A stretch of 46,007 nucleotides of DNA, from the NCBI GenBank assembly GCA_019347695.1, contig JAHWKT010000006.1:1-46007 (forward strand), read 5' to 3'. Below are positions 30,800 through 35,377 of this stretch, one piece after another. The notes under the pieces were generated by a model. It had not been told where the DNA came from. It saw only the letters and a list, made by a program, of their open reading frames with translations, and ran no database searches. The number at the start of each line of letters is the position of its first letter. The stretch's first letter is position 1. Both the position numbers and the translations under genes were made by a program. The stretch comes from Actinomycetota bacterium. GTDB lineage: Bacteria > Actinomycetota > Nitriliruptoria > Euzebyales > JAHELV01.

Positions 30800-31318
30800 A
30801 TGGCCGGGATCAGCGCACTCCAACTTGCCGTATCGGCCGTGGATCCGCTGCTCGACGACCTGCGGACCATGGTGCCAGCGGGCTCGGCCGTGCTCGAACC
30901 CGCCCACATCTCGTTCGGCTACCCGTGGATGGAACCGTCCGCAGGAAGGGCAGTGATCGACGACGTCGCCGAGGCGCTGGCCCGTGAGGCACCGTTCGAC
31001 ATCGAGCTCGCGGGTCCACGCCGCTTCGACCCGGATCCCAAGGGTCGGGTCACGGTGTGGCTGGAGCCCTATCCGGCGGCGGCGATCCATGCGCTCAACT
31101 GGGTGATCGCCGACGCGTCCGGCCACGACGTCGATGACTTCACACCACACTGCAGCCTCGTCCGCCTGCAGGCCGGAATCGAACCGGGTCCGCTCGAGCG
31201 GCTGGTTCATCAGCGACTGCCGCTGCGTGCGCGGCTCGACCGGGTCGAGTTCCACACCCGCGATGACGATGTGTGGCGACTCGAGCGCAGCCTCCCGTTG
31301 GGATCCACCCCGGCATGA
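30800..31318 (+). CDS. 2'-5' RNA ligase / 2H phosphoesterase family protein
   Basis: Two HxS/T-type motifs, AHISFGYPW and PHCSLVRL, appropriately spaced. Confidence 0.8.
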   Translation: MAGISALQLAVSAVDPLLDDLRTMVPAGSAVLEPAHISFGYPWMEPSAGRAVIDDVAEALAREAPFDIELAGPRRFDPDPKGRVTVWLEPYPAAAIHALNWVIADASGHDVDDFTPHCSLVRLQAGIEPGPLERLVHQRLPLRARLDRVEFHTRDDDVWRLERSLPLGSTPA

Positions 31319-32043
31319 CGCTGCGGATTGCCGATGAGTTCGCGTCCTATCGCGCACTGAGCTTCGACTGCTACGGCACCCTGATCGACTGGGAGAGCGG
31401 GATCGCCGGCGCGCTTCGCCCGTGGGCGAGCCGGCACGGTCTGGAGGTGTCGCGCGAACAGCTGCTCGCGGCGTTCTCGGCCACCGAGACGGTCGTGCAG
31501 TCCGAGCAGCCGACAGCCCGGTACCCGGACATTCTCGCCGAGGTGCTGCGTCGCATCGGCGCGCAGCTCGGCGTGGGCGTGTCGGCGACCGAGGCCGCGA
31601 CCTTTGGAGCGTCGGCCGGTGACTGGCCGGCGTTCACCGACTCGTCGAACGCGCTCCGCCGTCTGCAGTCACGTTTCATGCTGATCGTCCTGTCCAACGT
31701 GGACCGGCGGTCCTTTGCAAGCTCGAGCCGCCGGCTCGGCGTCGACTTCGATCGGGTGATCACCGCTGAGGACGTCGGCTCGTACAAGCCGGCACCTCGC
31801 AACTTCGAGGCGCTGCTCGAGCACCTCACCGACCTGGAGGTGCAGCCCGACCAACTGCTCCACGTCGCCGAGAGCCTCTACCACGATCACGCACCGGCCC
31901 ACGCCGTGGGGCTGCGGTCGGTGTGGATCCACCGCCGTCACGCGCTCGACGGATTCGGTGCGACCCCGCCGCCACAGCACGACGTGGAACCCGACTGGCG
32001 GTTCGAGTCGATGGCTGCGTTCGCGGACGCGGCAGGTGTGTAA
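31315..32043 (+). CDS. HAD-superfamily hydrolase (haloacid dehalogenase type II-like)
   Basis: ALSFDCYGTLIDWESGI, LIVLSNVDRRSF, VITAEDVGSYKPAPRNFEALL; ATGA overlap with the 2H gene. Confidence 0.9.
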   Translation: MTLRIADEFASYRALSFDCYGTLIDWESGIAGALRPWASRHGLEVSREQLLAAFSATETVVQSEQPTARYPDILAEVLRRIGAQLGVGVSATEAATFGASAGDWPAFTDSSNALRRLQSRFMLIVLSNVDRRSFASSSRRLGVDFDRVITAEDVGSYKPAPRNFEALLEHLTDLEVQPDQLLHVAESLYHDHAPAHAVGLRSVWIHRRHALDGFGATPPPQHDVEPDWRFESMAAFADAAGV

Positions 32044-32211
32044 GAGCTTGCGCCGGTAGGAGGCTCGATGAGTGAGCGTGACCAGGTGGATGCGTCGCGA
32101 GGCGGCGGAGGAGCACGTACCGGGGTTGTACGTGCGACGACGGCAACGACGTGAGGGGATGCAGTCCCCCGAGGTCACGCGCGAGCCGAGCAGCCCTACC
32201 GGCGCGAGCTC
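32044..32211 (+). ncRNA. Candidate structured RNA of unknown class (three-way junction, about 168 nt)
   Basis: P1 17 bp (32044-32060/32195-32211, one U-G); P2 6 bp (32062-32067/32182-32187); P3 8 bp (32076-32083/32173-32180); P4 7 bp with a 1-nt bulge (32091-32097/32138-32145); hairpin A 8 bp (32113-32120/32128-32135); hairpin B 5 bp (32155-32159/32165-32169). Confidence 0.6.
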
Positions 32212-32374: not shown

Positions 32375-35300
32375 ATGGTCGGCATCATCGCGACACCAGA
32401 ATGCGGCGCCGGCGCGCGACGAGCGCCGGACGCCGACGGCGCCTGCCGGGGCACGCCGCTGGCCGACCTGGTGCACCGCGGCTACACGAGCCCGGCCGCT
32501 CGTGCCCTGACCGGCGCCGCCGCACACCTGCGGGACGGCCTGTGCGCCGGCGGCCTCCAGATCCACTACCAGCCGATCGTCTCGCTGCCGGATGCACGCC
32601 TGCTCGGCTTCGAGGCGCTCGCCAGGCTGCGGACCAGCGACGGCGGGGTCGTGGCACCTGACCGATTCATCACGCTGGCGGAGTCGTCGGGCCTGATGGT
32701 CCCCCTCGGCCTGGAGGTGCTGGCGGCCGCCACGGCGACGTTGGCGCAGTGGCGCCGTGAGCCGGCGTTCGCGGGCTTGTATGTCAGCATCAACGTGTCG
32801 CCCGTCCAGTTGACCGACGCTGCGTTCACCACCGCGGTCGGCGACGTCCTGCGCACCTACGCGCTGCCGGCTTCGGCGATGGTGCTCGAGGTGACCGAGA
32901 GCAGCATCGCCGACAGCGACGCCGTCGAGGCGATGGGCGTCGTCGAGGCGACGGGCGTCCGCCTCGCGCTGGACGACTTCGGCACCGGCTTCGCCACGCT
33001 CGACAGCCTCAAGCGCCTTCCGGTCCAGATCCTCAAGCTCGACCGCACCTTCGTCAGCGGCATCGGCGACGGCGGGCCGGACCGGGTGATCGTGCGCAAC
33101 GTGCTCGACCTCGCCTACGAGCTCGACCTGTTGGTGGTCGCCGAGGGTGTCGAGACCCACGCCCAGGCTGCGAGCCTGGCCGCCTGGGGCTGCGCCGCCG
33201 CACAGGGCTGGCTGTTCGGCAGGCCCGCGCCCGCCGACCGGGTGACCGTGCCCGCGGAGACCGCCAACGGTCCGACGGCGGTCACGCCACGCCACGCGCA
33301 GCACGCCGAGCGCGCGGCGATCGCCGCGATCGCGCACGTGCTGGCACTGACCGACGAGGACGACGGCGAACAGCGGGCGCTCGTGCACGCGGTGGCGACC
33401 GGGATCGGCAAGGCGATGCGGTTGCCGGCACTCACGGTCGACGAGATCGGCCTGATCGCGCTGTGCCATGACGTCGCGCGGCTGCAGCCGCTGTGGCCGG
33501 AGCGCGATGACGGCACGGTGCTGCCAGCGGTGCTGCGGCCCCTGATCGACCGGCAGTGGGAACCCGACGACCATGGGTTGGCGGCACACGTGGTCACCGT
33601 CGCCACCACCGTCGTCACCGCGGCGGGCGCGCGTCCCACCGGCGGCCCAGAGCGGCTCGCCGAGGCGCTGGGCGCTGCGGCGCTCGACGAACCGCGCGGT
33701 ATCGCCCAGGCCATGCGCCAGCTCGCCGGCGACCTGCCCACCCTGTCTCCCGCGATGCGGGACCTGGCGCGCCTGCAGTCAACACTGTCGGACCCGGTAC
33801 AGTCGGTCGACGCTCGTCTGCACACGCTGCGCTCGCTGTCGTACGCGATCGACCCTGGCGGTGGCTTCCGCGATCTGGTCGGGGTGCTCGCCGACGAGGC
33901 CTGCGGGATCATCGGCGCCGCCTCGCTGTCGCTCGGCCGCTGGGAACGTGACGAGGGCGTCCTGCGTGTGCTGGTCAACGTCGGCCACCACAGCGCCACC
34001 CAGGAGCGCTTTCCGGACGACGAGGTCCATGCGATGGCCGAGTACGTGACGGCCAGTCGCATGCTGGCGGCGGGGCTGCCGCGCCTCGAGCGCCTGTCCG
34101 ACGCTGACGGCGATCCGGCCGTGCATGCCCGGCTGGCCGAGCGAGGGAGGGGCTCGTGCGTCGCGGTTCCGGTCTACACCGCGGATCGGCTGTGGGGGGA
34201 GCTGTACGTCACGACCGAGGTCGACGAGCCGCCGTTCACGGCGCGTGACACCGAGCTGTTGACGACCGTCGCCGACATCCTGGGTGGGGCGCTCGCGCAC
34301 GGCGAGCAGCTCGACCGGATGGCGCGGCTGGCATTCGAGGATCCGCTGACGGGCCTGGCCAACCGCCGGGCGATCGACGACCGGCTCGAGCAGGTGCTGC
34401 GCACCACCGACGCGCCGGTGACGGTCGTGATGCTCGACGTCAACGGCCTCAAGCAGGTCAACGACGAGTACGGACACCCGACCGGCGATCGCGCGCTGTG
34501 CGCGGTGGCCGACGCGCTGAGCACCGCGACACTGGAGGAGTCGGATGCCACGAGCGCGCGGCTCGGAGGCGACGAGTTCTGCGTCGTCGTGTTCGGCGAC
34601 GACGGCAGCGCCGCAGAGCGCATCATCCGACGGACGGGCGAGCAGCTGCGCGAAGCGCCGGCACCGCAGGTGACGATCTCCGCCGGCGTGGCGACGTCGG
34701 GAGGTGTGGGCCGGACGGTGCGCGCGCTGTTCACCACGGCCGACAAGGCCCAGTACGAGGCGAAGCGTTCCGGTCGTCTACTGCAGTTCGTCGACGTCGC
34801 CGAGCGCCCAGCGGGGCGTTCGAAGGATCCCGACCACCGAGGTGGACCGCGCACCGACGCGGCCGACACCAGCGGCACCCCTGTGGAGATCGTTTCGGGC
34901 CGGGTGGTGGACAGGCTCGGCCGACGTGGCACCACGCCGGTCTTCGATGTGCTGGAAGCGGTCGCCGACGTGATGGCCGACGCCTGCGACCTGAGCCGCT
35001 GGTCGCTGTCACGGGTCGACGACGACGGGGGGATCCGCACCCAGCGACTCCGCGTGCGGCGCGTCCGGCCGGTCTCTTACCATCGCAACGTCGTGCCGCC
35101 CGAGGACGAGTTCTACCTGCTCGACGACTACCCGCTCACCAGGGCGGCGATCGAACGCGGTGCGCCGTTCTGGGTCCACGTCGACCGCGACGACCACGAC
35201 CCCGCGGAGCGTGCGGTGCTCGACAACGACGGCATGACGGCCGTGGTCGGCCTGGGTGGCCAGGACAGCGACGGCGGGTGGCTGCTGGAGCTGTACGCCG

Positions 35301-35377
35301 ACGAGCGCAGCGACGATCTCGAGCCATACCTGCCGCTGGCCCGCGTCATGTCGCTTGTGCTGCGCGACGCCAGCTGA
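32375..35377 (+). CDS. Multidomain cyclic-di-GMP protein: EAL - HD-GYP-like - GAF - GGDEF - C-terminal GAF-like
   Basis: EAL: GFEALARL, NVSPVQL, EVTES, DDFGTG, KLDRTF, AEGVET. GGDEF: DPLTGLANRRA...DVNGLKQVND...ARLGGDEFCVVV. Middle IALCHDVARLQPLWP resembles a degenerate HD. Confidence 0.92.
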   Translation: MVGIIATPECGAGARRAPDADGACRGTPLADLVHRGYTSPAARALTGAAAHLRDGLCAGGLQIHYQPIVSLPDARLLGFEALARLRTSDGGVVAPDRFITLAESSGLMVPLGLEVLAAATATLAQWRREPAFAGLYVSINVSPVQLTDAAFTTAVGDVLRTYALPASAMVLEVTESSIADSDAVEAMGVVEATGVRLALDDFGTGFATLDSLKRLPVQILKLDRTFVSGIGDGGPDRVIVRNVLDLAYELDLLVVAEGVETHAQAASLAAWGCAAAQGWLFGRPAPADRVTVPAETANGPTAVTPRHAQHAERAAIAAIAHVLALTDEDDGEQRALVHAVATGIGKAMRLPALTVDEIGLIALCHDVARLQPLWPERDDGTVLPAVLRPLIDRQWEPDDHGLAAHVVTVATTVVTAAGARPTGGPERLAEALGAAALDEPRGIAQAMRQLAGDLPTLSPAMRDLARLQSTLSDPVQSVDARLHTLRSLSYAIDPGGGFRDLVGVLADEACGIIGAASLSLGRWERDEGVLRVLVNVGHHSATQERFPDDEVHAMAEYVTASRMLAAGLPRLERLSDADGDPAVHARLAERGRGSCVAVPVYTADRLWGELYVTTEVDEPPFTARDTELLTTVADILGGALAHGEQLDRMARLAFEDPLTGLANRRAIDDRLEQVLRTTDAPVTVVMLDVNGLKQVNDEYGHPTGDRALCAVADALSTATLEESDATSARLGGDEFCVVVFGDDGSAAERIIRRTGEQLREAPAPQVTISAGVATSGGVGRTVRALFTTADKAQYEAKRSGRLLQFVDVAERPAGRSKDPDHRGGPRTDAADTSGTPVEIVSGRVVDRLGRRGTTPVFDVLEAVADVMADACDLSRWSLSRVDDDGGIRTQRLRVRRVRPVSYHRNVVPPEDEFYLLDDYPLTRAAIERGAPFWVHVDRDDHDPAERAVLDNDGMTAVVGLGGQDSDGGWLLELYADERSDDLEPYLPLARVMSLVLRDAS

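Follow-up and report, generated by a model that had tools for sequence, protein, structure and literature searches.

Directly after the stop codon of a HAD-like hydrolase gene in an actinobacterium of the class Nitriliruptoria (GCA_019347695.1), the sequence forms a long palindrome of 168 nt, followed by a co-oriented gene for a cyclic-di-GMP protein. This raises the question of whether the palindrome belongs to one of these genes, is an RNA gene of its own, or has arrived there by insertion. It lies in the window, the whole stretch of 46,007 nt of contig JAHWKT010000006.1 that was analysed. The earlier note on this DNA had described a structured RNA candidate and offered three readings: a riboswitch-like leader, a standalone ncRNA, or the ncRNA component of an undescribed element. 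Its coordinates, its sequence and the 17-bp closing helix (P1) match that description exactly, and on the sequence the first base past the HAD stop codon is indeed the start. Our analysis identifies the stretch as a copy of an undescribed mobile-element family of about 160 nt, present in actinobacteria including Streptomyces (Table 1). The third reading came close, the element being a transposable one with selection acting on the fold of its + strand.

The + strand has a predicted MFE of -98.0 kcal/mol, compared to -70.8 +/- 4.1 kcal/mol in 200 dinucleotide shuffles, none of which was as good (z = -6.6); in the comparison proposed by the earlier note, the energy therefore lies far below that of shuffled sequences. 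Folding of the - strand is likewise strong (z = -6.2), which a palindrome would be expected to show. According to the partition function, P1 and P3 form almost certainly, as does the apical GCACGUAC/GUACGUGC helix; the P2 helix is also predicted, with its register displaced by 5 nt (in the MFE structure, GCUCG pairs with the second CGAGC). P4 as drawn and a second hairpin, GGGGA-UGCAG-UCCCC, each have a probability of at most 0.01, and the shape predicted for the window copy is a long rod instead of the proposed three-way junction; rods are also predicted for relatives. The Rfam search gave no family at the gathering threshold and only noise at a relaxed one. A tRNA/tmRNA search returned none, and neither a U-tract terminator nor a sigma-70-like promoter was found.

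Table 1. Features of the element copy and its neighbours in the window.
Feature	Position	Strand	Basis
Complete mobile element, family copy, 168 nt without target duplication	32044..32211	+	Fold z -6.6, other copies, boundaries
Left target duplication TAA, doubling as the HAD stop codon	32041..32043	+	Sequence; identical TAA after right end
Right target duplication TAA	32212..32214	+	Sequence
Left terminal inverted repeat GAGCTTGCGCCGGTAGG, 5' strand of P1	32044..32060	+	Pairs over 17 bp, mostly with probability 1.0
Right terminal inverted repeat, 3' strand of P1	32195..32211	+	Pairing probabilities
Left core motif, here GCGAGGC (family GCAAGGC)	32097..32103	+	GC.AGG.G invariant in 31 aligned copies, diverged subfamilies
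Right core motif AACGACGT (family AACGCmGC)	32145..32152	+	AACG..GC invariant in 31 aligned copies
Apical hairpin GCACGUAC-cggggtt-GUACGUGC	32113..32135	+	Pair probabilities 0.96-1.0
Copy-specific GGGGATGCAGTCCCC segment, right arm	32155..32169	+	Alignment; no hairpin in predicted ensemble (<=0.01)
Host HAD-like hydrolase gene, stop codon at insertion	31273..32043	+	PF00702 (E 1.5e-11), PF13419
EAL-GAF-GGDEF cyclic-di-GMP protein, downstream neighbour (context only)	32375..35377	+	PF00563, PF00990, PF01590

The BLASTN search for homologues that the earlier note had suggested recovered more copies in relatives, and the window genome itself contains two further near-full copies (85-86% identity) plus several partial or truncated ones. 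Using a covariance model built from an alignment of seven copies, we found the family in 12 of the 66 genomes of the class and in 24 of 399 Actinomycetota genomes, with at most six strong matches per genome. With a Streptomyces-type copy as the query, 98 places were matched across 46 plasmid records from Streptomyces and Embleya, and most of the matches listed have no annotated feature beneath them; phages gave no match for the Streptomyces type. Neither an Rfam family nor a record annotation describing the family was found, nor a description in the open-access literature on actinobacterial MITEs and palindromes. The elements, multi-copy sequences of <300 bp without a transposase gene, measure 157-168 nt between their duplications (median 160), and 10-16 of the 16 terminal bases are complementary in all listed copies but one. 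Ends related to the left terminal inverted repeat of the window copy are found on copies in five other genomes (G015, G025, G037, G048, and G064). The GGGGATGCAGTCCCC segment is seen only in the window genome, in the window copy and the one on contig C141. With GCGAGGC in place of the family motif and a changed right arm that the C141 copy also has, the window copy is a somewhat degenerate family member.

The copies vary in form. An ATG..TGA frame of 28 codons lies inside the window element (32068-32154), and since most other copies lack its ATG (GATCAG vs. GATGAG), it is probably a chance frame. Several copies are found at contig ends (G048, G064, G025), as is typical of repeats that break assemblies. 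In G048 (C243, L139), elements at 1501-1666 and 1705-1783 lie almost head to tail with a lone CTTAG between them, as if the terminal target site of one had received the other. A 73-nt internally deleted element in G025 retains both terminal repeats and is apparently a single copy read at two contig ends (C72 and C23; L151 and L159). A diverged copy in G001 (C127:14511-14721, L141) carries an insertion of ~50 nt in the apical loop. Short solo palindromes also occur (L215, G025:C127:8604-8620 on the - strand; L213, L219, L221, and L229), for example TAAG-AGCCCGCGCCATTAGG-TGGC-GCGGGCTC-TAAG, and look like what remains of a full element after its core was deleted between TGGC microhomologies. Near position 7312 of C11 in G000 (L009), a truncated element end is bordered by a near-perfect inverted repeat, GCGACCTCTGCGGCC/GGCCGCAGAGGTCGC.

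Insertion can be followed to the base in Streptomyces sp. ADI95-16, where a copy of 159 nt (L256) occupies precisely a CTAG site that six close relatives have without an insert. The joined flanks of this copy, used as the query, matched end to end and in one piece in all six relatives at 98%. The empty site CCGCGCTAGGCG compares with the filled site CCGCGCTA-159 nt-TAGGCG, which demonstrates insertion with a TA duplication. Of 61 copies, 31 have an intact target duplication, which is TA/TA at CTAG in 25 and a repeated triplet in 6 (for example TAA, TTA, or TTC); the other 30 have none intact. The window copy is of the triplet type (TAA|GAGCTT...GAGCTC|TAA), a layout also found at L135 (TAA/TAA), L136 (TTA/TTA), and L137 (TTC/TTC). 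Near-identical copies occupy differing sites in G002, G003, and G015. Within the genus to which the window belongs, the HAD / EAL-GGDEF gene order is kept in the sister species G001 with no element in between, and no element follows the HAD genes in G002 and G003; as these species are diverged, they show absence rather than an exact insertion.

The ends of the elements point to candidate transposases, whose identity is inferred from matching ends. At the threshold used, 41 matches of terminal inverted repeats were found near transposase loci compared to 18 with shuffled ends; therefore, only paired or well-placed matches were used, as single weak ones prove little. In Streptomyces, IS elements encoding an IS630-family transposase (L265 and L266) match the type-A ends of the copies (CTA|GTGCTGTGGCCGG...) on both sides. 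In G388, an IS with a PF13358 transposase (L315) has type-A ends on both sides, and the same genome carries type-A copies (L238 and L252). In G331, one visible end is common to IS630-type elements and the GTGTCGCGTGTCG copies of that genome, and IS5-family elements (PF13340) in G340 and G001 have one end matching the MITE ends of G340 and G003. Within Streptomyces, the ends combined with the common core are of at least four kinds (L256, L258, L260, and L261). The plasmid regions examined for IS partners of the Streptomyces B, C, and D ends had solo copies or no transposase. For the window-type ends, a pattern search of eight genomes found no transposase lying between an inverted pair of them, and no partner was found among the transposase loci either. 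Two further loci lie close to IS5-family genes: in G165 (C22, 1775-1937; L339), a family-type end pair ~160 nt apart adjoins an IS5-family transposase gene, and a solo type-A end is located between IS5 transposase and Imm51 immunity genes around position 240150 of NZ_CP108988.1 (L262).

The arms also record which strand is selected. They were aligned with a strand-neutral score in 37 representatives (<85% identity), in which G.U pairs outnumber A.C pairs by 213 to 79, with the reservation that most of the diverged copies came via the + strand covariance model, possibly favouring G.U-rich copies. The sign is the same in copies found by BLAST (the window copy, C137, C141, and those of G025, G015, G037, and G050). 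G.U exceeds A.C in 34 representatives, with the reverse in 2; the outer arms alone give 131:33, copies with an antisense adjacent long ORF give 119:35, and the + strand fold is the more stable in 36 of 37. As a double-stranded palindrome would give equality, the fold of one single strand, the + strand, is under selection, a result compatible with either RNA or single-stranded DNA. Transcription-coupled C-to-T mutation as the source of the G.U excess was rejected, because its signal would follow gene orientation and the excess persists in antisense copies.

Conservation is concentrated in a short core. Subfamilies with divergent arms share GCAAGGC followed by AACGCnGC, usually 46-49 nt later (56 of 62 copies), and 12 positions are invariant in 31 aligned copies (G23, C24, A26, G27, G28, G30, A70, A71, C72, G73, G76, and C77, numbered by the first row of the alignment). 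The pair adjoining the core motifs is C-G in 18 copies, G-C in 11, and U-A in 2, and is broken in none. A covariation score of 0.36 stands against 0.12 in shuffled alignments; slid structures do not exceed 0.125, and two-sided compensated cells number 41 vs. 13.5 +/- 2.6. Core helices are thus kept by compensatory changes across copies, the pattern by which the earlier note had proposed to judge the fold. A predicted GC/GC helix with an unpaired AA is placed identically in 30 of 34 individual folds.

Could the fold serve a neighbouring gene? Long ORFs (at least 100 codons) end at an element boundary in 43 of 62 copies, 24 in sense, 30 in antisense, and 11 on both sides, as expected because the target contains TAG. 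The CTAG at L256 contains the TAG stop codon of an MBL-fold gene, which the left end regenerates after insertion, and annotated Streptomyces genes also end at elements at L270, L271, and L274. An orientation bias to sense genes was apparent in the first loci and is gone in the set of 62 copies. A cis-acting RNA of the HAD or EAL-GGDEF gene, be it a riboswitch, leader, or regulated terminator, would fit the strong RNA-like fold, the covariation, and the position between two co-oriented genes, one encoding a cyclic-di-GMP enzyme. This explanation is largely refuted by the spacer of G001 and the HAD genes of G002 and G003, which lack a copy, by the unrelated genes beside other copies with no conserved tie to one gene class, by ORFs ending on either side, and by the negative terminator, promoter, and Rfam searches. 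The riboswitch-like leader of the earlier note falls with it, and a standalone ncRNA does not fit either, as the stretch is a copy of a dispersed mobile element and not a one-off RNA gene. Less drastically, the family could be an ERIC-like 3'-UTR module kept for setting the stability of the upstream mRNA, in line with its very stable fold and its location at stop codons in the window and at the four Streptomyces loci. We consider this unlikely: the absence of an orientation bias and a strand signal as strong in antisense copies argue that host-gene benefit did not shape the family.

Two further explanations concern DNA rather than gene regulation. In an ordinary palindromic MITE, quasi-palindrome templated repair alone would keep the arms alike and the RNA fold would have no role; template switching between arms can give symmetric changes without selection, the MITE features of size, ends, and target duplication are present, and deletion remnants of the palindrome exist. 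This reading predicts equal numbers of G.U and A.C pairs, at odds with the excess found independently of the orientation of neighbouring ORFs, and arm correction would erase the unpaired AA and AAC bulges that are near-invariant across subfamilies, making it improbable. The hairpin architecture, the single-strand selection, and the copies at gene ends would also suit an element of the REP/RAYT type, which a Y1/HUH transposase would move in the form of single-stranded DNA. Such an origin is very hard to reconcile with target duplications of 2-3 bp, an exact empty site, long terminal inverted repeats, and ends common to DDE-type IS elements, and REPs are 20-40 bp long (PMC3733652) compared to ~160 nt for the elements described here.

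We therefore favour, with a probability of roughly 0.88, a non-autonomous DNA transposon (MITE) moved in trans by IS-type DDE transposases and carrying a fold selected on the + strand. Its terminal inverted repeats would be cut and joined in trans at CTAG or CTNAG, duplicating TA or TNA. Because this target holds TAG or TAA and the left end restores the stop, an insertion on a stop codon would leave the protein unchanged; the stop codon is restored in the HAD gene of the window and in the annotated Streptomyces genes. The whole + strand would be selected to form a rod of ~160 nt around the near-invariant core with two A-rich bulges. This fold, acting either as RNA or as single-stranded DNA, may help the element itself to persist or spread, since the signal is independent of the orientation of neighbouring genes. 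At the window locus, the element would be transcribed as part of the HAD 3' end, where, by analogy with ERIC, it probably adds a hairpin that is inert or that stabilises or destabilises the mRNA. ERIC transcripts alter the stability of upstream mRNAs in an orientation-dependent manner, in the account of De Gregorio (2005) given in the review PMC2229807. An extension of the favoured reading, which we put forward tentatively as possible rather than probable, is that the core hairpin, as + strand RNA or single-stranded DNA, is a parasite that has repeatedly adopted the ends of unrelated transposases (IS630-type and IS5-type) across Actinomycetota and whose fold is needed for mobilisation or copy-number control, for example if the AA and AAC bulges bind a host or transposase protein.

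Bacterial MITEs are usually remnants of IS elements, each linked to a single IS and restricted to a few genera. In this family, one architecture of ~160 nt with near-invariant unpaired bases recurs phylum-wide with differing transposase-like ends and a single-strand signal, making it testable whether there are small transposons with functional RNA or single-stranded DNA cores that are able to switch transposases. Many unannotated hairpins 3' of actinobacterial genes, including those on Streptomyces plasmids, would then have arrived by recent insertion and would not be terminators or regulatory RNAs. Among known systems, ERIC (IRU, RU-1) of enterobacteria is likewise a short (127 bp) intergenic palindromic MITE with TA termini, whose transcript forms a long stem loop without a need for coding (PMC2229807). 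It is a functional analogue set apart by description, as the present family is longer (~160 nt), has another phylum and core, matches several IS lineages with its ends, and targets CTAG/CTNAG at stop codons. In Streptococcus pneumoniae, RUP is also a non-autonomous palindrome with a TA target and ends matching an IS630 element, IS630-Spn1 (PMC2229807, PMC3049150), but is a single streptococcal family of 107 bp, in contrast to a phylum-wide core with differing, partly IS5-like ends. NEMIS/Correia elements share the long terminal inverted repeats, TA termini, and folded transcripts, proposed in their case as RNase III targets (PMC2229807), and differ by description in their hosts, the present family having a phylum-wide core with near-invariant unpaired bases. 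REP/REPIN sequences resemble the family as palindromic extragenic repeats with strand-asymmetric hairpins; the elements described here are not palindromes of 20-40 bp without target duplication, having instead ~160 nt, terminal inverted repeats, a TA/TNA target duplication, and DDE-type partners. The family works like ERIC, RUP, and NEMIS and has the size, copy number, terminal inverted repeats, and target duplications of a MITE, yet it is not one of the known families, and what is unusual about it is the combination of a core conserved across the phylum with different ends.
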